From IMG/VR virus record IMGVR_UViG_3300010397_000008, positions 1-63,956 of that record: a stretch of 63,956 nt of DNA. One strand, written 5' to 3'. The notes below the pieces were generated by a model. It had not been told where the DNA came from, did not search any database, and worked only from the letters and a program-made list of their open reading frames with translations. Of this stretch, positions 5,788-63,596 are shown one piece after another. This DNA comes from a virus. Both the position numbers and the translations under genes were made by a program. Every line of letters starts with the position of its first letter. Position 1 is the stretch's first letter.

Positions 5788-5802
5788 TTCCTACCGACAG
5801 GG
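5788..5802 (+). promoter_or_regulatory. Copy 1 of the CCTACCGACA leader element
   Basis: TTCCTACCGACAGGG ends in the AGGG that acts as ribosome binding site for the start at 5810. Similar sequences precede starts at 55687, 58834 and 60376. Confidence 0.65.
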
Positions 5803-49463: not shown

Positions 49464-51371
49464 TTACATCAACCCCCGTTCCTGCCGCCACGGATCGCCG
49501 GCCCACGCCGGCGGCTCGTCGTCGTCATCCTCGGCCTCACGACGCGAAAAGTACGAGTAAACGAGCCGGTCCATCATGCGCTCCGCGACCGTGTTGCGGC
49601 CAGCCGCTTCGTTCATCACCCGGTCGTAGGTCGCCCCAGCGGCGATCAGCGGCATCCGCAGCCACTCGTTCCACGCCCACACCGCGAGCGCCGCGGCGAA
49701 CGGGCGATCATCCTTGAGGCTGCCCGGCGCGGCTGGAGCAAGGTCGGGCTTTTCCTGAACCATGTCGTTCATTTCTTCCAGCATGGGCATGCTGTTCACA
49801 ATCAGCGTGTCGGTCTGATAGGCGTTGCGGAACCCCTCGAACAAGGCAACCTTGTTGGAAGCTGACGTTTTGAAGTTGTACACGAATCCCGCGCCCAGGC
49901 TGTCAACGCGCCGATAGAGGAACCACCGCGCCGTGGACATAAAGTCGTCGTCCCAGGCGTTGTCGCGGTTCTGCGTCGCGTACATCTCCTGGCGAAGTTG
50001 CGCGCGGATCGCGTCAAATTCGTTCATCACTACGGCGCCGCCGCCCCACAACTCCAAGTTCACCATGCAATTCCGGTAGGCACCGGCAAGCCCGGCCAGC
50101 ACCCACGCGCACTGGTTGGACTGGAAGCGGTTGCCGGCGTACTCGGCAACCTGAACCATCTTGTCGGCAAAACAACGCCACACGCTGATGCAAAAATTGT
50201 TGGTTTTCTCGCCCTGCCCGCCGGCCGGGTCGGCACCGATCACGTACTGCGCCTCGATGATCGGGTCTTCCCAAATCTTCAACTCGATCTGGTCGCGGTA
50301 GGCCGGGTCGGTGATTCGCTCAAGCCGCATCGCCCAAAAGCTGTTTCCCATCTCGAAGCGATACGCTTTGAACTTGATGTCCTGCTCGACGATCTCGCGG
50401 TAGCGGTTCTGCAAGAGGCGGGTCTGAAAGAACGAATAGCCCGACAGTACGAACGCCTGCCGTGCGGTCCACGGCTGATTCTGTTCCTGCGATTGCTGGT
50501 CGCTCAGCGACAGCCGCCAGCGCCACCACGCCAGTTGCTCCATCGTGACGACGTGGCCGTATTCCTCCAAGACCTCGTTGCAAAGCTGGTGTTCCTCGCC
50601 GTTGGGCGGGGTCAGCCCAAACCGGCGATAGTTCGGGGAATTGCGCGGGAGGTAGTTCATCTCCGACGCCCACCATCCGAGGAAGATGCGGTTGATCGAC
50701 AACTCGTCCTCGGCCGATTCCCACATGTCGTGCCAGGCGTTCGCGACACCTTTTGCCGTACTTTCAAACAAGAACAAGCGATCTTCGTTGGATTGCGCCA
50801 GAGCCTCCATGAAGCTCTTGATGCCCTTGTCGCTGCCGTAGCTGGCGACCTCCGTGCACAGGCACGCGCTATAGCCGCGCGACTCACCCCAATTCTCCTT
50901 GCGCTTCCCGGCGACGAGGTAGTCGATGCGCGAGCCGTTGCTGAACAGGAAATGCCGCTCGTTGTGGCGTTGCTTGACGAAGCTCGATCCGAAGAAATTG
51001 GGCGGAAACGACTTCATGTAGCGGTCGAGCGTGTCCCGGAAGGCGTTGCGGACTTCCTCGTCGTTACACACCAGCGCGGCGATCGTGCGCGGATGCACCG
51101 CGACCCAGAACAGCAAGAGCGCGGTGGTGATTGTAGAAATGCCCAATTGGCGAGACTTAAGTACGTAAATCATGCGCTGGTTCTTGAGGAACCCGTCGCC
51201 GACCTGTTCGAGAAACATGCGCTGCGAGCGCCACATATCGAGCGGGCTGCCGCGGTCGTCCTCGGCCTGGACCTCCTTCGAGTCGATGCGCAGCTTGTCG
51301 ATGAACTTGATGAACAGCGACAGCCACGGCTGCCGGCGCGCGAGGGTCGAGAGGCGGTCAGGTGGCGGCAT
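49464..51371 (-). CDS. terL: Terminase large subunit
   Basis: The packaging motor and nuclease of the phage. LKSRQLGIST at residues 71-80 is the adenine/Walker A region. CLCTEVA at 170-176 is the Walker B with catalytic Glu, and LFEST at 201-205 is the coupling motif. IGADPAGGQ at 378-386 gives the first nuclease Asp (D381). SLKDDRPFAAALAVW supplies the late acidic residues. The length (635) is at the high end of the family. A small terminase subunit is not next to it. Confidence 0.92.
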   Translation of the reverse strand: MPPPDRLSTLARRQPWLSLFIKFIDKLRIDSKEVQAEDDRGSPLDMWRSQRMFLEQVGDGFLKNQRMIYVLKSRQLGISTITTALLLFWVAVHPRTIAALVCNDEEVRNAFRDTLDRYMKSFPPNFFGSSFVKQRHNERHFLFSNGSRIDYLVAGKRKENWGESRGYSACLCTEVASYGSDKGIKSFMEALAQSNEDRLFLFESTAKGVANAWHDMWESAEDELSINRIFLGWWASEMNYLPRNSPNYRRFGLTPPNGEEHQLCNEVLEEYGHVVTMEQLAWWRWRLSLSDQQSQEQNQPWTARQAFVLSGYSFFQTRLLQNRYREIVEQDIKFKAYRFEMGNSFWAMRLERITDPAYRDQIELKIWEDPIIEAQYVIGADPAGGQGEKTNNFCISVWRCFADKMVQVAEYAGNRFQSNQCAWVLAGLAGAYRNCMVNLELWGGGAVVMNEFDAIRAQLRQEMYATQNRDNAWDDDFMSTARWFLYRRVDSLGAGFVYNFKTSASNKVALFEGFRNAYQTDTLIVNSMPMLEEMNDMVQEKPDLAPAAPGSLKDDRPFAAALAVWAWNEWLRMPLIAAGATYDRVMNEAAGRNTVAERMMDRLVYSYFSRREAEDDDDEPPAWAGDPWRQERGLM

Positions 51372-55646: not shown

Positions 55647-55686
55647 CGTTCCTACCGATACGCAACCTACCGACACGGAGCGAGCG

Positions 55687-55893
55687 ATGTACACAATCGA
55701 GACACGGCGGACTTACGGCTCGGGCTGGCTACAACTTGGTCAGCGGAGATCGCGCGAGGATGCGCAATGGCTGGCAATCGACATTTCCCGCGAGCTTGAT
55801 CGGACAACCCGCGTTGTCCGCTACGGTAAACGATTTGAGCTTATCTCCGAGCATGACGCACTTGGCGGTAGCATCCCGAAGCGGGAGGGCTAA
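55687..55893 (+). CDS. Hypothetical small protein, 68 aa
   Basis: CGGAG lies six bases before the ATG. The sequence YTIETRRTYGSGWLQLGQRR, then DAQWLAIDISRELDRTTRVV and GKRFELIS reads as a beta-beta-alpha-beta unit. First gene of the AAA+/vWA operon; role unknown. Confidence 0.6.
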   Translation: MYTIETRRTYGSGWLQLGQRRSREDAQWLAIDISRELDRTTRVVRYGKRFELISEHDALGGSIPKREG

Positions 55894-55896
55894 ACC

Positions 55897-57117
55897 ATGC
55901 GAGTTTCCTCCTACGATGCGGCTGCGCTTGAGGCGCAGATTGGCGCGCGCGGCGCCGCTGCGGTGAACAGCGGCAATCGCGCGCTGGTGCAAAACTGGCT
56001 CGTTGCCAATGGCGTCCCGAGCGTGCGCGCGAAGGCCATGAAGGTCACGACGCTTTGGAAATGCTACAACAAGCCGCGGTATCTCTCGGCAGTGCTGGCC
56101 TATGTCGAATCGCATGGCGCGGCGCCGGATATCGACACGCGGATTGACGACATGCCGGCGCCAGTTGATGCGCCGCTGCTCGACGATCCGGCGCCCGCGA
56201 TCACCACACCAGCCTACGCAACAGCGTTGCCGGCAGTCGCGCCCAACGACGCAGGCGCCCAGCTTGCCGCGCTGATAACCTCGCTGGCCGCTGGGGCGAT
56301 CAACGAGGCTCGTGTGATCGAATTGATCGCCGAGCATGCGCCACGGCCGCGGCAACATGAAATCGTCGTCGTCGATACTGTTGGCGAGCGCCGCGCGATC
56401 GGGACGCAGCATCGGCAGTTCGAACAACTGTTGCGGGCATGCGCGGCGCGCGATCATAGCGGCAATCGGCTCAATATCTGGCTTGCGGGTCCGGCCGGGA
56501 GTGGGAAGACGACAGCGGCCGAGAATGTCGCGAAAGCGCTCGGCCTCGCGTTTCACTTCAACGGCGCCATCGACAACGAGTACAAGCTGCTCGGCTTCAC
56601 GGACGCCAACGGCCGCATCGTGTCGCGGCCGTTCCGGGAAGCCTATCAGAATGGTGGCGTGTACCTGTTTGACGAGGTGGATCGCTCGTTGCCGGGCGCC
56701 CTGTTGGCGTTCAATGCGGCGCTCGCGAATGGTGTTTGCGACTTCCCGGACGGGACGATCGCGCGGCATCCCGATTGCGTCATCATCGCGGCCGGCAACA
56801 CTTGGGGCTTGGGCGGCACGACGCAGTATGTCGGCGCCATGAAGCAGGATGCGGCATTCGTTGATCGCTTCGCGTTCCTGCTATGGGAAATCGACGAAGC
56901 GCTAGAAACCGCTGCCTGCCCGAATGCGGAATGGTGCAGCTACGTGCAGCGGGTCCGGGAGCGCGTCGTCGCCAATGGCGTGCAAGGCGTCATGGTGTCG
57001 CCCCGCGCGTCGTTTATCGGCGCCTCGCTGTTGGCGGCAGGGCTCGACCGCGACACGGTTATCGCGATGACGATCCGCAAAGGTATGAGCGCCGAGCAAT
57101 GGGGAGCGGTAGCATGA
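55897..57117 (+). CDS. MoxR/CobS-like AAA+ ATPase, copy 1
   Basis: MoxR-type ATPases act with von Willebrand A proteins to remodel or insert cofactors into targets. GPAGSGKTT at residues 198-206 is Walker A, VYLFDEVD at 255-262 is Walker B, and AAGNTWG around 298-304 is sensor 1. The first 75 residues form an added helical domain (LVQNWLVANGVPSVRAKAMK) linked by a Pro/Asp-rich stretch. Its stop overlaps the start of the vWA-like partner. Target unknown. Confidence 0.85.
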   Translation: MRVSSYDAAALEAQIGARGAAAVNSGNRALVQNWLVANGVPSVRAKAMKVTTLWKCYNKPRYLSAVLAYVESHGAAPDIDTRIDDMPAPVDAPLLDDPAPAITTPAYATALPAVAPNDAGAQLAALITSLAAGAINEARVIELIAEHAPRPRQHEIVVVDTVGERRAIGTQHRQFEQLLRACAARDHSGNRLNIWLAGPAGSGKTTAAENVAKALGLAFHFNGAIDNEYKLLGFTDANGRIVSRPFREAYQNGGVYLFDEVDRSLPGALLAFNAALANGVCDFPDGTIARHPDCVIIAAGNTWGLGGTTQYVGAMKQDAAFVDRFAFLLWEIDEALETAACPNAEWCSYVQRVRERVVANGVQGVMVSPRASFIGASLLAAGLDRDTVIAMTIRKGMSAEQWGAVA

Positions 57118-57923
57118 TCCGGCGCTATGACTGCATCGCGGCCGTGGCGCGCGATGCAAAATCTCGGGCAGTGCTGCGCTCGCCGAGCGGCCGCAGCGAT
57201 TGGTTCAGCGGCGAAACTGGCTTGGAAAGCGTATCGCTGGCGCTGCGTGGCGATACGCGATTGGTCCCCGACGCCGAGCGGCTGCTGTCGCAGATTGACG
57301 CTGCAATTGACGTGCAGCACCGGGAATTGATCGCCGATCGCGTCGGCGCCTACCCTTGCGTCCCGGAATACCTGCAAGGCGTCCCTGACTGCATGCGGCG
57401 CCGGGCGCCCGTGGAGAATGAAGCGGCGCCGGTGGCGATCTATGTCGTGCTGGCATGCTCGGCGAGCATTGATGCGGCAACGCTGTTGCGGCGCGGTGTC
57501 GCGATACTGGCGCTGGCAATGGCGCTGGCGCGGCATCGGCCGATCGAATTGAACATCGTTCATATCGGCGACAGCAACACGGCCGGCGAAACCGAAAGCG
57601 TCATGGTGGCGCCGATCAATACCCGGCCGCTCGATTTGGCGAGCGCGGCCTACGTGCTGACATCGGCCGGTTTCGTGCGCCATGTCTGTTTCGGGCTGCA
57701 AATGGCCGATCGCGGGTTCACCGGCGGCTGGCCCGCCGATTGGCGCGTCAACAAGCCAGCTTACTTCGCAGGGCTGTTGCGGCGGCTCGGCGGCGATCCG
57801 GCGCGCGACATCATCATCGGCTCGGCCGATCATGGCGACGAATTGTTGGCCGATCCGGTGGCATGGGTAAACGGACAGATCGCCCGCTTTCGGGACGGTG
57901 CCGAGATGGGAGTCGCAGCATGA
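57114..57923 (+). CDS. vWA-like partner protein with changed metal site (DUF7192-like), 269 aa
   Basis: Residues 105-150 hold VAIYVVLACSASIDAATLLR, RGVAILALAMALARHRPIEL and NIVHIG, the order of a von Willebrand A fold. The metal motif DxSxS is altered to ACSAS, so metal binding may be lost. The C-terminal part (DIIIGSADHGDELLADPVAW) is conserved in phage proteins of this kind. ATGA overlap with the AAA+ gene supports a working pair. Confidence 0.65.
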   Translation: MIRRYDCIAAVARDAKSRAVLRSPSGRSDWFSGETGLESVSLALRGDTRLVPDAERLLSQIDAAIDVQHRELIADRVGAYPCVPEYLQGVPDCMRRRAPVENEAAPVAIYVVLACSASIDAATLLRRGVAILALAMALARHRPIELNIVHIGDSNTAGETESVMVAPINTRPLDLASAAYVLTSAGFVRHVCFGLQMADRGFTGGWPADWRVNKPAYFAGLLRRLGGDPARDIIIGSADHGDELLADPVAWVNGQIARFRDGAEMGVAA

Positions 57924-58354
57924 GCGCCGCACGCTGGCTCGCCAATGCCCGAGCGGCGCACACGCGCGCGCTCGGGAGCACGCAAGCCTTCCCGCTGTTC
58001 GGCGATGGCGATCACGTCGCCGGCATCCTGACGGGACAGGTCGAGCGCGACCCCGACGTTGCCGGCGCGGCGCTGGCCGAGGCGCGCTATCGGGACTGGC
58101 AGCACGCGCGCATGACCGGCGCGGCCGACACCAGCGCATTCGGGACAGCGGGCGCCTACACGTCGCCGCCGCCGCTGGCGTTGACGCCGGATGACGTGCC
58201 TGCGGTTCAGACCCGGCTTACCCTGCCCTCGCGCCAGCGCACGCGCACGCCGCTGGACGACGCTGCGGCGATCATCAAGGGCCTGGTGGACGAGTTCGGC
58301 GACCTGTTCCCGGACGAGTGCGCAGCGGCCGTGGCGTGGCTGGCGCGGCAATGA
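57920..58354 (+). CDS. Hypothetical protein, 144 aa
   Basis: ATGA start. Helical ends (ARWLANARAAHTRALGSTQA; DAAAIIKGLVDEFGDLFPDE) surround a Pro/Thr-rich centre. It is part of the AAA+/vWA operon. Unknown. Confidence 0.6.
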   Translation: MSAARWLANARAAHTRALGSTQAFPLFGDGDHVAGILTGQVERDPDVAGAALAEARYRDWQHARMTGAADTSAFGTAGAYTSPPPLALTPDDVPAVQTRLTLPSRQRTRTPLDDAAAIIKGLVDEFGDLFPDECAAAVAWLARQ

Positions 58355-58683
58355 CCGAGCCCGCGCCGCCGCTGATCGTCCTGACCGAGCGCGAGGCGCT
58401 GGCGGCGCTGTTCACCGTCGCGGCGATGCACCAAGGCTGGTACGTGTACAGGATGAACGAATTTTACCCGCGCACGTCTGACCCGCTGCCCTTTGTCGGA
58501 TATGCGGCTTTTGATGGCTTGACGAGACCTGTCGCCCCGCTTTGGGCGTGGCGCGCAGGCGATGGGGCGTATGGGCTGATGTTGCCGGACGATATGGCGA
58601 TCCACGTCGTCGCCACCGGGCGCGTTGACCGCGGCCTCGGGGCGATCACCCCACATAAGACCGCCCCGGACGCCAGCGCGTGA
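58351..58683 (+). CDS. Hypothetical protein, 110 aa
   Basis: ATGA start. TEREALAALFTVAAMHQGWY, then PFVGYAAFDGLTRPVAPLWA and YGLMLPDDMAIHVVATGRVD reads as a small alpha/beta domain. Unknown. A 150-bp gap with a promoter follows. Confidence 0.6.
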   Translation: MTEPAPPLIVLTEREALAALFTVAAMHQGWYVYRMNEFYPRTSDPLPFVGYAAFDGLTRPVAPLWAWRAGDGAYGLMLPDDMAIHVVATGRVDRGLGAITPHKTAPDASA

Positions 58684-58767
58684 ACGCGGCGAAACCGGGG
58701 CGGAATGTCCTACCGACTAGGAACCCCGCACACATAGGGCACGACGAAAATAAATGCAAGCGTGCCG

Positions 58768-58796
58768 TTGACAGCACGAAACGCAGGGATTACGAT
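58768..58796 (+). promoter_or_regulatory. Strong putative rightward promoter inside the AAA+/vWA block
   Basis: TTGACA (58768-58773) and TACGAT (58791-58796) with 17-bp spacing form the most consensus-like promoter seen in the window. It should start transcripts just before the CCTACCGACA element at 58808 and drive the second AAA+ module. Confidence 0.72.
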
Positions 58797-58833
58797 TGTT
58801 TTCGTTACCTACCGACACCGACAGGAGCACACC

Positions 58834-58977
58834 ATGTCAGCCTTTATCGTCTCTCACGACCACATCGACGCGATCGCTCGCAGCCTCGAAAGTCGGATGC
58901 CAGCGGCGATATTTCACCCAAGGCATGCCACCATCGACGGCCCCGACCTCGGGCGCGATGGGAGGACCATCCCATGA
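58834..58977 (+). CDS. Short protein, 47 aa, likely truncated family member
   Basis: ACAGGAG precedes the ATG. The start SAFIVSHDHIDAIARSLESR resembles the opening of longer phage proteins that begin SAFxVSxxHIDxL and continue for over 100 residues, so this copy may be truncated. Its stop overlaps the AAA+ start as ATGA. Confidence 0.55.
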   Translation: MSAFIVSHDHIDAIARSLESRMPAAIFHPRHATIDGPDLGRDGRTIP

Positions 58978-59993
58978 AAATCAGCGCCCTGATCGAGACG
59001 ATCAAATCGCAGTACCGGCAACCGCCCGAGCGGCGGCGCCCGATCTTCGCGCAAGGCGTGCCAGGCGTCGGCAAGAGCCAGGCCGCCGAGACCGCCGCCG
59101 CCGACCTCGGCATAGGGTTCATGTCGCTGCAAGCCACGATTGAAGACCCGATTACGCTCTCGGGGCTGCCGGCGCGCGACGTGTACGTTGACGGCATGCA
59201 ATCGGTGCCGACCAACGAGGCGGTGTTCCTGCCTTTTCGCGACAAGCTCCCCTCGCGCGGTGAGGGTGTGCTGTGCATCGACGAAATCAACACCGCCGCC
59301 CCGATGGTACAGGCCGGGCTTTATGACCTGTTTCTGCACGGCAAGCTCGGCTCGTACCGCCTTCCGACCGGCTGGTACGTGATGGCGACCGGCAATCGGG
59401 ACGAGGATCGCGCCGCGACGCAGCGTATTCCGATGCCGCTCATCGGCCGCTGGACGCGGGTTGTCGTCGAAGTGGACCTCGCCGACTGGACGAAATGGGC
59501 GCTGGTCAATGCGATCCGAACCGAGATGATCGCGTTTTTCCAGTTCCGCCCCGAGCTTTTCCACACGTTCGACCCCAAGAAGGCCGAGCCCTATTGTTGC
59601 CCGCGCACGGCGGTTTTCGCCTCGCACATCATCGATTCTGCCCCGCCGGGACTTGAGCACGAACTGCTCTGCGGGACGATCGGCGAGGGCGTGGCAACCG
59701 AACTGGTCGCGTTCATGCGGGTGTTTCGGGAGATGATTTCGCCCGACGCGATCCTACTCAATCCGGCCACTGCACCTGTCCCGACCGAACCGGCTGCCGC
59801 CTGCGCCATCGCTGCGGCGCTTGCGCACAAGGCAACGGAGTCGAACTTCGGGCGGGTGCTGACCTACGCGAACCGGATGCCGGCCGAATACGGCGTGTTG
59901 ATCGTCAAGTTGGCGACGCACCGCGATATCCGGTTGAACGCGACCCGCGCGTTTATCGAGTGGGCGGCGGCGAATACGGATGTTGTGCTGTGA
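58974..59993 (+). CDS. MoxR-like AAA+ ATPase, copy 2
   Basis: GVPGVGKSQ at residues 28-36 is Walker A and VLCIDEINT at 99-107 is Walker B. MATGNRDED around 137-145 carries sensor 1. The 339-residue protein has little besides the AAA+ core. GGGAGG lies eight bases before the ATG. Its likely partner is the metallopeptidase/vWA protein encoded 2 kb downstream. Sequence similarity to copy 1 is limited, so they are not a recent duplication. Confidence 0.87.
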   Translation: MKISALIETIKSQYRQPPERRRPIFAQGVPGVGKSQAAETAAADLGIGFMSLQATIEDPITLSGLPARDVYVDGMQSVPTNEAVFLPFRDKLPSRGEGVLCIDEINTAAPMVQAGLYDLFLHGKLGSYRLPTGWYVMATGNRDEDRAATQRIPMPLIGRWTRVVVEVDLADWTKWALVNAIRTEMIAFFQFRPELFHTFDPKKAEPYCCPRTAVFASHIIDSAPPGLEHELLCGTIGEGVATELVAFMRVFREMISPDAILLNPATAPVPTEPAAACAIAAALAHKATESNFGRVLTYANRMPAEYGVLIVKLATHRDIRLNATRAFIEWAAANTDVVL

Positions 59994-60349
59994 GCGCCGT
60001 GAAACCTGGCTTCGCGTTGGTGATCCAATGCGACGAATGCCCTTGGCGCCGTGATGTCCCGACCGGGAATTTCCCGCCGGAGCGGTATGCGGCCCTCGCC
60101 AACAGTTGCCGGCAAGGCTATCCGCCAGCGCCGATGTTCGCTTGCCACAAGACCCCGGAGGGCAAAGAGCAAGCGTGTGTTGGCTATCTGCTTCGCAACG
60201 GCACCAACAACATTGCCGTGCGGATTGCCGCAGCAGAGGGCCGCGTCAAGTTGCGCGCCCTACAGGTTCGTGGCCCGCTCTATGACGGATTTCGGGCGAT
60301 GGCGGTCGCTAACGGGTACGACCCCGGCGACGATTCAGATTTGGCATAA
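59990..60349 (+). CDS. DUF6283-like Cys-rich protein, 119 aa
   Basis: GTG start in a GTGA overlap. CDECPWRRDVPTGNFPPERY, CRQGYPPAPMFACHKTPEGK and CVGYLLRNGTNN give the DUF6283 order of Cys/His residues, likely a metal site. Family function unknown. It lies between the two parts of the second AAA+ module. Confidence 0.75.
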   Translation: MSAVKPGFALVIQCDECPWRRDVPTGNFPPERYAALANSCRQGYPPAPMFACHKTPEGKEQACVGYLLRNGTNNIAVRIAAAEGRVKLRALQVRGPLYDGFRAMAVANGYDPGDDSDLA

Positions 60350-60350
60350 T

Positions 60351-60367
60351 CCACCTACCGACAGGAG
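60351..60367 (+). promoter_or_regulatory. Copy of the CCTACCGACA leader element before the DUF3150-like gene
   Basis: CCACCTACCGACAGGAG ends in a perfect ribosome binding site nine bases before the ATG at 60376. CATAAT at 60345-60350 could be a -10, but no good -35 is visible. Confidence 0.6.
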
Positions 60368-60375
60368 AAATCACA

Positions 60376-61266
60376 ATGACCCTCACCACGAAAGCCATGC
60401 TCTGCCGCATGCAAATCCGCATGTGGACCGCTCGCCGATTTGATCGGGACACGTCGGAGGAAATCGCCGACCTGCACGGGGCGACCGACGCGGGCCGCTT
60501 CAATAAGCTGCTCCTGCCCAAGACGGCGCTCGCCGGCATGCAGTCGGCTGCAACCGCGCTGCGTACCCACCACGCGGCCAACACGCTGCCGTGGACGCTT
60601 GACGGCGTGGGGCTGCTGCCTGCCACCAACTACTTCCCGTACATGGCCGAGCACAAGCGGCTCGCGATCATGTTCGACCTCGCTAAAGAGGCGTTCCTTG
60701 AGGGCTTCGCCGCGGCAAAGGGCTCGGCCAAGGTGAGCCTGGGCGACCTCTACCGCGAGGATGAGTACCCGACCGCCGACGACCTCGCCGGGCGCATCGG
60801 GTGCGCGGTCAATGTGTGGCCGCTGCCCGACGCCGGCGACTTCCGGGTGGACCTCGGGAACGCCGAGGAAGCCCGCATCCGCGCCGACATCGAGGCGTCG
60901 GTCAACGATGCCGTGGGGGCGGCGGTGCGCTCGCTGTGGCAGCGGGTGCACGACACGGTGTCCGCGATGCACGAGCGGTTGACCAAATTCCACCGGGACG
61001 ACGACGGCAAGGTCAAGAACCCCTTTCGGGACAGCCTTGTTACGAACATGCGCGAGTTGGTGGACCTGATGGCACGCTTGAACGTCACCGACGACGCTGC
61101 GCTCGAATCGATGCGGCGGCGGCTGGCCGAAAAGTTGTGCCCCATTGATCCCGACGACCTGCGCGCGAATGACGAACTTCGGGCGATCCAAGCAGCCGAG
61201 TGCGCTGCCGTGCTCGATTTGATGGCCGCGTATACCGGCGCGGCTCCCGCGCTCGCTGCGGAGTGA
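60376..61266 (+). CDS. DUF3150-like protein, 296 aa
   Basis: The protein is helical with W/Y/F clusters (CRMQIRMWTARRFDRDTSEE; LPWTLDGVGLLPATNYFPYM; AVRSLWQRVHDTVSAMHERL). Members of DUF3150 occur in phages and mobile elements beside MoxR- and CobT-like genes, the context seen here. It probably takes part in the AAA+/vWA complex. No enzymatic motif visible. Confidence 0.65.
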   Translation: MTLTTKAMLCRMQIRMWTARRFDRDTSEEIADLHGATDAGRFNKLLLPKTALAGMQSAATALRTHHAANTLPWTLDGVGLLPATNYFPYMAEHKRLAIMFDLAKEAFLEGFAAAKGSAKVSLGDLYREDEYPTADDLAGRIGCAVNVWPLPDAGDFRVDLGNAEEARIRADIEASVNDAVGAAVRSLWQRVHDTVSAMHERLTKFHRDDDGKVKNPFRDSLVTNMRELVDLMARLNVTDDAALESMRRRLAEKLCPIDPDDLRANDELRAIQAAECAAVLDLMAAYTGAAPALAAE

Positions 61267-61271
61267 CGGCG

Positions 61272-61583
61272 ATGACCCTATCCATCGCCGAAATGGCGAA
61301 GATCGCCGAACTGCATGGCAGGCTGACTATCAGATTGACCCAACTCGATGACGCCCGGCGGCGGCTCGCGTTGATGGTCAAGTCAGCGAAAGTAGCCCCG
61401 ATCGTCACTGTCATTTACACGCACGGATCGGAAAATCGCAACGAATCCTATTTTACCGAGCGCGGCGAGTTTCCGGCTGCTGTCATCATCCAGCAGCAAA
61501 TCTATAAGTGCGCTCGGCTTGAGCGAGAGGTTATCGCGCTCGGTGGCACCGTGCCGATGGATAAGTGGAGAGCGAATCCATGA
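61272..61583 (+). CDS. Hypothetical coiled-coil protein, 103 aa
   Basis: Helical start (LSIAEMAKIAELHGRLTIRL; TQLDDARRRLALMVKSAK), a strand centre (PIVTVIYTHGSENRNESYFT) and a closing helix. ATGA overlap with the next gene. Unknown. Confidence 0.6.
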   Translation: MTLSIAEMAKIAELHGRLTIRLTQLDDARRRLALMVKSAKVAPIVTVIYTHGSENRNESYFTERGEFPAAVIIQQQIYKCARLEREVIALGGTVPMDKWRANP

Positions 61584-61841
61584 TCCGGCGCAAGCGGAGC
61601 GACCCGCAGGCCAAGGCCGAGCGGCGGAAGGCGGTGGCTGAAAAGGCCGTCGCCGAGTTGACCAAGCACCAAGGGCAAGGTGAAGCGCCGCTACGCGCTG
61701 GCGGTGATGATGCCCGAGGGCCGGTGTCTCGTGTGGGACTTTCGGGACGGCTTCAAAACCGGCGCGTGGGCCGACCTCGAGAACCGCAGGGCGCTGCACA
61801 CGCCGTCGCAACCCGTCGAGTTCTTGGAGGCAGCGGAATGA
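61580..61841 (+). pseudogene. Small gene split by a +1 frame change near 61670
   Basis: An ATG in an ATGA overlap opens IRRKRSDPQAKAERRKAVAE, then KAVAELTKH. Skipping one C at 61669-61671 (CACCAAGGGC) continues in the other frame as KGKVKRRYALAVMMPEGRC, then LVWDFRDGFKTGAWADLENR, ending FLEAAE at 61841. That end forms an ATGA with the next start. Without the shift the first frame runs through Arg/Gly-rich shadow sequence. Alternatively the second half is its own gene from GTG at 61680 (53 aa). Confidence 0.5.
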
Positions 61842-62128
61842 CCCTAGACCAAATGCGCAAGCTGTGGCCCATCGCGAAGTTGCTGCACGAGGCGCGGCAG
61901 CAGATCGCCCCCACGGCGCTCGGCGGGCAGGCGTGGCCCGAGTGGACCCCGGCCTACCCGCACAACCCGATCGCGTTCGTGGACATTGCGCTCGCGCAGG
62001 CGGCGGCGGTGGAGCCGGTGGTTGATGCGCTGGCAGCGATTGAGAGAAGCACCGATTACGGCGGTGACGGCGATGATCGACCTCTGATGCGTGCGGCCCG
62101 CGCTGCTTTAGCCAAGGTGACGCCATGA
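61838..62128 (+). CDS. Hypothetical protein, 96 aa
   Basis: GGAGG lies eight bases before the ATG, which overlaps the preceding stop. LDQMRKLWPIAKLLHEARQQ, then YPHNPIAFVDIALAQAAAVE and LMRAARAALAKV are helices. Unknown; belongs to the second AAA+ module. Confidence 0.6.
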   Translation: MTLDQMRKLWPIAKLLHEARQQIAPTALGGQAWPEWTPAYPHNPIAFVDIALAQAAAVEPVVDALAAIERSTDYGGDGDDRPLMRAARAALAKVTP

Positions 62129-63288
62129 CCCCGACCGAAACCGCTCGCGCGCGGATATCGAAGGCCCGCGCTGCTTTAATTTTGTCCCAGCCCTTCTGGG
62201 CCGCGCTCGCGCTGCGCCTCGACGTGCAGCCGATGCCGGCGAACGTCGCGTGCTCCACGATGGCAACCGATGGAAAATACCTTTGGTTCAACGCTGACTT
62301 TGTGCTCGACCAAAAACCCGAGCATCTTGTCACCATCGTTGCGCACGAGGCCGGGCATTGTGCCCTGCAACACCCGATGCGCCGGCAGGGGCGCGACCCG
62401 GCGCGCAGTAATATTGCCGAAGATCACGCGGTAAATCTGCTGCTCAAGGGCTCGGGATTCCCAATGCCGAAAGGTGCCTACTGCGACCCGCAGTACACCG
62501 ATTGGGCGTTCGAGCGGATTTACCCGCTGATCCCCGAGCAACCGCCGGCGCGTGGCGGCAACTACGGTGGCATGGGGTGCGTGGTGGACGCCTCGGGCGA
62601 CGGCGGCCAAGCGCTCTCGCAGGCCGACCGCGAGGCGATGGAGCGGGAATGGAAGATCGCGCTCATACAGGCCGCACAGGCGGCCAAGGCGCAGGGGAAG
62701 TTGCCGGGGTGCCTGGAAGGGCTGATCGAGTCGGTTCGCGCGCCTGCGGTGGACTGGCGCGCCGTTCTGCGGGAGTTCGTGCGCTCGGTCGCCGCCAACG
62801 ACTATTCGTGGCGTCGGGCTAATCCGCGCTTCCTCGCCACCGGCGATTACCTGCCGAGCCTGTGGAGCGAGGAAATCGGCCCGCTGGCGATCGGGGTGGA
62901 CACCAGCGGCTCGGTGAGCCAAGCCGAATTGGAGGCGGTGTGCTCGGAGTTGAACGGCATCCTCGATACCGTCAAGCCCGAGTTTGTCGCTGTTGCCTAT
63001 GCCGACGCTCGCGTGCATTCGCACGAGGTTTTTAAGCCCGACGATTGGCCGGTTAAGATGGCGGTGCAAGGCCGCGGCGGGACAGATTTGCGGGGTCTGT
63101 GGCCGTATTTCGATAAACACGACATAACGCCATGCTGCGCGATCGTTTGTACCGACATGGAACTGCGTGTCGCTGACCTCGGCGAAGAACCGCCCTATCC
63201 CGTCCTGATCTGCACCACCGGACGCATGGAGCCGATGGACGGGCCGGTTGCCTTTGGTCAAGTCATCAAGGTCGAGTTGTCGCCGTGA
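62125..63288 (+). CDS. Metallopeptidase-like plus vWA protein (DUF2201 type), 387 aa
   Basis: This protein joins two known parts. Residues 65-110 contain IVAHEAGHCALQHPMRR with the HEAGH zinc motif at 74-78. Residues 255-325 contain GVDTSGSVS (MIDAS DxSxS at 259-263) and GRGGTDLRG, the second MIDAS element. DUF2201 proteins with this plan are encoded with MoxR-type ATPases. The ATPase at 58974 is the likely partner. Substrate unknown. ATGA start. Confidence 0.85.
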   Translation: MTPTETARARISKARAALILSQPFWAALALRLDVQPMPANVACSTMATDGKYLWFNADFVLDQKPEHLVTIVAHEAGHCALQHPMRRQGRDPARSNIAEDHAVNLLLKGSGFPMPKGAYCDPQYTDWAFERIYPLIPEQPPARGGNYGGMGCVVDASGDGGQALSQADREAMEREWKIALIQAAQAAKAQGKLPGCLEGLIESVRAPAVDWRAVLREFVRSVAANDYSWRRANPRFLATGDYLPSLWSEEIGPLAIGVDTSGSVSQAELEAVCSELNGILDTVKPEFVAVAYADARVHSHEVFKPDDWPVKMAVQGRGGTDLRGLWPYFDKHDITPCCAIVCTDMELRVADLGEEPPYPVLICTTGRMEPMDGPVAFGQVIKVELSP

Positions 63289-63596
63289 CTCGCCTCATCT
63301 GGGCAGACTTGGCGACGGTCCAGGCCGAGGCCGAGCGATGGGAGCGGCGGGTACGCTACGCGCGCCGCGAGAGCGCCCGCCGCCGCGCCCTGTTCACCAA
63401 AGCCGAAAGGGTGTTGGCGACCGCAGCGGCGATGGCCGGCAGCAAAGCGCCGCTGATCGCGGTGCAGGCGTGGCATGACGCCTACGGGCGGCGGCAAGGG
63501 CTCTACATCATCCTGCCGGGCGACCGGGAAATGGCGTGGACGCCGCGCGGTGGGTTCAACGTCGGCGAAATCTCCTACGGGAAGATACCGTTTTGA
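63285..63596 (+). CDS. Hypothetical protein, 103 aa
   Basis: GTG start in a GTGA overlap. A basic coiled coil (VQAEAERWERRVRYARRESA) is followed by LIAVQAWHDAYGRRQGLYII and a strand end. Unknown. Confidence 0.6.
   Translation: MTRLIWADLATVQAEAERWERRVRYARRESARRRALFTKAERVLATAAAMAGSKAPLIAVQAWHDAYGRRQGLYIILPGDREMAWTPRGGFNVGEISYGKIPF

Follow-up and report, generated by a model that had tools for sequence, protein, structure and literature searches.

The right end of IMGVR_UViG_3300010397_000008, a single virus record of 63,956 bases that we analysed at its full length and refer to here as the window, carries on its plus strand two different gene modules, each combining a MoxR-type AAA+ ATPase with a VWA-type partner protein. 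Module 1 (55897-57923) consists of a CobS-like ATPase, AAA1, followed by a DUF7192 protein, and module 2 (58974-63288) of a second ATPase, AAA2, a DUF3150-like protein, P8, and a DUF2201 metallopeptidase-VWA protein. The window represents a tailed-phage genome, with the terminase large subunit (49464-51371) and structural-type proteins encoded on the minus strand; the plus strand close to the left end carries genes for RecT, an exonuclease and a DNA methyltransferase. The presence of an exact 30-bp terminal repeat suggests that the genome is probably complete, and the right-end, plus-strand placement of the two modules means that, on a circular map, the region reads toward the recombination genes. 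No relatives of the window at the DNA level were found among phage records. All of the genes named in an earlier reading of this DNA from its letters alone (the original prediction) are open at their assigned coordinates, and its central observation, that two non-identical MoxR-type ATPases occur here with a VWA-type partner each, is borne out by the intact ATPase motifs and the adjoining partner genes.

The two ATPases are clearly different proteins; their profiles align across the AAA+ core (hhalign E 4e-15). AAA1 contains the Walker A (G198-T205), Walker B (D259-E260) and sensor-1 (N301) motifs, together with a candidate Arg finger (R324) and a candidate sensor-2 residue (R370), and these key residues were invariant in an alignment of 12 divergent homologues. 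Comparison with the PDB matched CobS (9ujv) across the whole AAA+ module (profile positions 166-383, E 7.5e-15); the region N-terminal to it is common mainly to near relatives. The order of ATPase and then, directly, DUF7192, known as the phrog_249 and phrog_1909 pair, was found in the window and nearly everywhere else that we looked. Among 80 viral loci gathered with the AAA1 profile, DUF7192 lies directly 3' of the ATPase gene in 74 (73 identified by script, plus L096, whose frame overlap slightly exceeded the cut-off), and the two genes are adjacent in all 11 named phage records, which come from very different hosts and comprise Staphylococcus, Listeria, Mycobacterium, Gordonia, Lactobacillus, Sinorhizobium, Tunturiibacter and crAss-like phages. 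The pair is therefore near-obligate. In four of the six remaining loci the sequence stops with, or close to, the ATPase gene. The other two are L046, where DUF7192 is 6.4 kb downstream of AAA1 in the sole clear separation of the pair, and L055, where the genes are on opposite strands alongside a second AAA1 fragment, possibly at a chimeric contig end. Mycobacterium phage Silverleaf (MK494092.1) has two DUF7192 matches (64958-65785 and 69017-69856), only one of them beside the ATPase.

To place DUF7192, a family of which we found no mention in the literature searched, we compared an AlphaFold2 model built from 66 sequences (mean predicted local distance difference test score, pLDDT, 90) against 350,542 PDB chains with Foldseek. 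The top two matches were the VWA domain of NorD in NorQ-NorD complexes (9qh6_G, E 1.6e-4, probability 0.98; 9qh8_G, E 4.7e-4), and the later matches were mostly VWA domains. Against a viral structure library the model matched, after its own family, phage VWFA and CobT-like proteins, with E values from 7e-6. Several results weigh against this assignment. TM-scores (template modelling scores) to VWA structures were low, at 0.22-0.41, in a measure that gave only 0.54-0.72 within the DUF7192 family itself; an hhalign comparison of DUF7192 with DUF2201 was not significant (1.5% probability); and a PDB sequence search with DUF7192 gave no VWA protein. Because of the low TM-scores, we grade DUF7192 as a remote VWA-like fold, predicted and not settled. 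The VWA fold proposed originally for the protein at 57114 is thus favoured by structural comparison, while sequence profiles provided no link to it.

The metal ion-dependent adhesion site (MIDAS) of the window's DUF7192 protein maps to residues 112-118, where the strand ends in VLACSAS. The change from DxSxS noted previously is real, but it is better placed at V112-L-A114-C-S116 than at 'ACSAS': the protein reads VxAxS in place of the DxSxS-T-D of a MIDAS, whereas the family consensus at this site is D-x-T-S-S-A/G-G. The suggestion that one of the two VWA proteins is probably metal-free is consistent with this decayed site. We considered whether a metal-free VWA protein might be peculiar to this phage and rejected the idea; the first MIDAS Asp is present in only 29 of 66 DUF7192 relatives, so decay is common in the family and does not set this phage apart. 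Conservation in DUF7192 is highest in two segments, a hairpin at residues 69-100, just before the MIDAS site, with conserved G78, P81, V83, G89, P91 and M94, and a helix at residues 121-139, behind that site, where R127-G128 are also strongly conserved. In the NorQD system, a finger of NorD enters the NorQ pore, and mutations in the NorD MIDAS leave NorQ binding intact while abolishing maturation of the client (PMC13036017, PMC9976466). By analogy with NorQD (PMC13036017), the DUF7192 hairpin is a candidate pore finger, and docking of DUF7192 on AAA1 could therefore survive the decay of the MIDAS. It counts against this assignment that its basis is order and conservation.

The same similarities could be taken to mean that module 1 is a cofactor-insertion enzyme resembling cobalt- or magnesium-chelatases, given that AAA1 matches CobS, that the DUF7192 fold resembles CobT-like VWA proteins, and that phrog_249 bears the label 'porphyrin biosynthesis'. 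CobN, however, is longer than 1,200 amino acids (aa), and the longest open reading frame (ORF) in the window is 850 aa, leaving no gene of CobN or ChlH size; in addition, the DUF7192 MIDAS is decayed, and at 269 aa the protein is far shorter than the CobT-like proteins (about 600-860 aa). We therefore rejected a cofactor chelatase, which we regard as very improbable. The 'porphyrin biosynthesis' label of the AAA1 family looks wrong.

The kind of module that module 2 represents is already known: a pair of MoxR ATPase and metallopeptidase-VWA protein has been described in jumbo phages (PMC7824862), and the prototype of module 2 is N4 gp24 and gp25. As in the N4 pair, the window has a phrog_1297 ATPase with a same-strand HExxH-DUF2201-VWA protein in which both the HExxH and the MIDAS are full. 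In AAA2, motifs P30-G31-x-G33-K34, D103-E104, N141, R159 and R211 are invariant in six homologues, and the protein is 74% identical in two related assemblies, L021 and L181. The AAA2 frame stays open for 98 codons upstream to a GTG (58680-59993); we prefer the short start because 58974 corresponds to the start in homologues. The protein encoded at 62125-63288 matches DUF2201_N (E 5e-45) and DUF2201 (E 2e-20), and its HExxH (H74-E75-x-x-H78) and complete MIDAS (D259, S261, S263, T320, D344), both of which had been recognized in the original prediction, are invariant in six homologues. Of 86 DUF2201 loci, 75 have AAA2 encoded on the DUF2201 strand. Homologues of P8 occur in 36 of these 86 loci, and in 29 they lie between AAA2 and DUF2201. 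The proposed DUF3150-like identity of P8 is weak for the window protein, which has no Pfam match, but gains support from homologues, six of 36 of which match PF11348 (best E 2.4e-6). The P8 model (pLDDT 92) had no PDB match at E<=0.001. Searches with a single-sequence query found no relatives of P8, and none of DUF2201 in bacterial genome contigs. The DUF2201 family (phrog_1314) is widely labelled 'HNH endonuclease', a label that looks wrong. Table 1 lists these genes with their neighbors, among which the DUF6283-like protein reported previously is confirmed.

Table 1. Features of the two-module region at the right end of the window.
Feature	Coordinates	Strand	Evidence and remarks
Small gene, 68 aa	55687..55893	+	First of the module-1 run; two CCTACCGA repeats upstream
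AAA1, MoxR/CobS-like AAA+ ATPase, 406 aa	55897..57117	+	phrog_249 E 4e-47
DUF7192, the VWA-like AAA1 partner, 269 aa	57114..57923	+	PF23822 E 3e-12; phrog_1909 E 9e-18
DUF7192 hairpin, residues 69-100, candidate pore finger	57318..57413	+	Predicted secondary structure, conservation
P4, small protein 3' of module 1	57920..58354	+	Homologues only in L002, L021 and L181, located correspondingly
P5, small protein	58351..58683	+	Without family match
Short ORF overlapping the AAA2 start	58834..58977	+	CCTACCGACA and Shine-Dalgarno-like AGGAG upstream
AAA2, MoxR-type AAA+ ATPase, 339 aa, N4 gp24 family	58974..59993	+	phrog_1297 E 3e-71
DUF6283 protein	59960..60349	+	PF19800 E 1.5e-25
P8, DUF3150-like protein with long helices; third component of module 2	60376..61266	+	Homologues in 36/86 DUF2201 loci
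P9, small protein	61263..61583	+	ORF; without family match
P10, small protein	61838..62128	+	ORF
DUF2201_N metallopeptidase-DUF2201 VWA fusion, 387 aa, N4 gp25 family	62125..63288	+	phrog_1314 E 2e-90
P12, small protein 3' of DUF2201	63285..63596	+	48% identity to the L099 homologue

Each module is common in phages, and the two are almost never found together. In samples of about 50 records per module, many of which are fragments, so that true co-occurrence may be somewhat higher, DUF2201_N was absent from all 50 module-1 records and AAA2 was present in one of 50, namely L021. Conversely, DUF7192 was found in none of 47 module-2 records with a custom profile that detected three positive controls, and in none of 50 with the Pfam model, which finds DUF7192 in 18 of 18 module-1 records tested. 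The exception is a related virus represented by two assemblies, L021 and L181, in which the gene order is that of the window (DUF7192, P4, AAA2, P8). P4 follows module 1 in the nearest relatives only. L021 ends before the expected start of DUF2201, and L099, with a DUF2201 protein 59% identical, may be the other end of an L021-like virus. Because L021 and L181 come from different metagenomes and have the same order, a chimeric assembly is unlikely, and the two-module arrangement is real, shared within one lineage, and exceptional. The ATPases thus do occur separately in relatives, apart from this virus, and the view that the two pairs constitute one dedicated remodelling system does not hold as the default, since the modules seldom share a genome elsewhere; this indicates two separate machines side by side rather than one composite.

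A composite machine or two-step pathway, in which module 1 would unfold or deliver a client that module 2 then holds and cuts, would nevertheless agree with the adjacency of the modules on one strand and with the recurrence of their order in L021 and L181. Against it, either module is as a rule found without its counterpart, and a gap with a leader-like repeat lies between them here; we consider it decidedly improbable. The same low probability applies to the more specific proposal that DUF7192 proteins are VWA co-chaperones of a branch that lost metal-dependent client binding while keeping the finger for the pore, and that in the lineage of this virus DUF7192 acts in series with the peptidase-VWA machine in an unfold-then-cut pathway.

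Placement of both pairs in one operon, another part of the original prediction, is unproven. Several genes of the region overlap by four bases; the modules, however, are 290 nucleotides (nt) apart, and the gap holds the short ORF at 58834-58977 with a leader-like repeat of its own. Copies of CCTACCGACA lie ahead of the starts at 55687, 58834 and 60376 (span 55651-60363), each beginning 21-26 nt upstream. With at most one mismatch the sequence has eight matches in the window against 2.2 expected, a number reached by none of 100 shuffles. These positions suggest separate expression starts, and CCTACCGACA is possibly a phage leader, promoter or ribosome-binding element, as judged from sequence. 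A further copy lies at 5790, just before an ATG, and L021 (9785) and L002 (13945) each have a similar copy ahead of a gene. In L021, a repeat similar to that upstream of the 68-aa gene precedes the start of a short gene upstream of AAA1.

We favor, as moderately probable, the reading that the window encodes two independent MoxR/VWA remodelling machines side by side, each acting mid-infection on its own client. Gene content, ATPase motifs, within-module pairing, near-exclusive distribution and the predicted DUF7192 fold were computed here; ring formation, finger-in-pore docking, a metal-free state, client handling and timing are inferred. Each ATPase would form a ring on which its VWA partner docks, and ATP hydrolysis would pull or twist a client protein bound via that partner. 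In module 2, a client held by the intact MIDAS of the DUF2201 protein would be cut by the zinc-peptidase-like domain at the N terminus of that protein, and the helical DUF3150-like protein would serve as a putative adaptor. Module 1 may be a reduced pair of the CobS/CobT or NorQ/NorD sort, in which the conserved DUF7192 hairpin would be suited to entering the AAA1 pore and, because the metal site is decayed, DUF7192 would hold its client through a different surface. Each module most likely acts in mid-infection, on a client of its own that could be a phage or a host protein.

With regard to function, mid-infection remodelling is our first choice, with a somewhat better than even likelihood, and the main rival is that one or both modules are virion assembly chaperones that fold, assemble or cleave phage head or tail proteins. 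Published proposals favor virion assembly over mid-infection remodelling, and papers on N4-like and Listeria phages describe no phenotype for either pair, both of which count against our reading. A role in virion assembly was proposed for the module-2 architecture in jumbo phages (PMC7824862); the Acidianus two-tailed virus protein p618 is a virion component that binds the VWA protein p892 (PMC4124505); Staphylococcus phage 515A1 has an AAA1 homologue that carries the label 'structural protein', assigned by a method not stated; and phage RPP1 encodes virion proteins near its gp24/25 homologues. The window's modules, however, are on the strand opposite the terminase and virion-type genes, and in several relatives the modules adjoin DNA polymerase, helicase or nucleotide genes, with DNA polymerase A no more than 5.5 kb away in 8 of 17 records by our reading. 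In addition, N4 gp24/25 are middle and not late genes (PMC4193335). Across relatives, the distances to DNA polymerase and terminase are too variable to settle timing. On balance, we regard virion assembly as rather unlikely. It is also conceivable that the modules form a counter-defence or defence system resembling the VMAP/MoxR-vWA ternary conflict systems, which MoxR-vWA pairs power (PMC7159879), and module 2, with its third protein and peptidase, has some likeness to these. Unrelated lytic phages commonly carry these modules, however, and the 10 proteins scanned with Pfam, P10 and P12 lying outside the scan, contained no VMAP, iSTAND, FtsH or effector domain, making this explanation improbable.

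The novelty of the locus is modest, in that machines of known general kind have been placed together. Two points are new: the model-based interpretation of DUF7192 as a minimal VWA co-chaperone with a decayed MIDAS, and the observation that the modules are normally not in the same genome. If DUF7192 is such a co-chaperone, the mechanism derived from NorQD becomes testable. The near-exclusive distribution hints at overlapping jobs for the two modules, and viruses that have both offer a natural test. Hundreds of sequenced phages carry one or the other pair (AAA1 has matches in 428 phage records and DUF2201 in 619), and the usual labels are misleading.

Among known systems, module 2 resembles N4 gp24/gp25 in ATPase family, HExxH-VWA fusion, order and strand, and the jumbo-phage MoxR and metallopeptidase-vWA pair (PMC7824862) by architecture. 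Compared to both, the window adds a DUF3150-like protein between the two genes, as in about 40% of the relatives gathered, and its module 2 adjoins module 1. The ATPase family of module 1, followed by DUF7192, is found in phage K (ORF15/ORF14), Listeria phage P100 (gp90/gp91) and Silverleaf (gp123/gp122), which, unlike the window, are without DUF2201 and AAA2; the N-terminal region of AAA1, kept mainly in near relatives, also sets it apart from the ATPases of these phages. Cobaltochelatase CobS/CobT is like module 1 in the AAA+ module, and the DUF7192 model matches CobT-like phage VWA proteins by predicted fold; it differs in the size of CobT and in the CobN-sized gene that the window lacks. 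A CobS/CobT pair annotated in a phage (RHph_N2_6) lacks DUF7192 and is much more distant. The Paracoccus denitrificans NorQ/NorD system (PMC9976466, PMC13036017) differs from module 1 in its NorD N-terminal domain, for which we recognized no counterpart in module 1, in its MIDAS, which is decayed in DUF7192, and in its nitric oxide reductase client, which module 1 lacks; it combines, like module 1, a MoxR ATPase with a VWA-type partner, and the NorD VWA chain is the best PDB match of the DUF7192 model.

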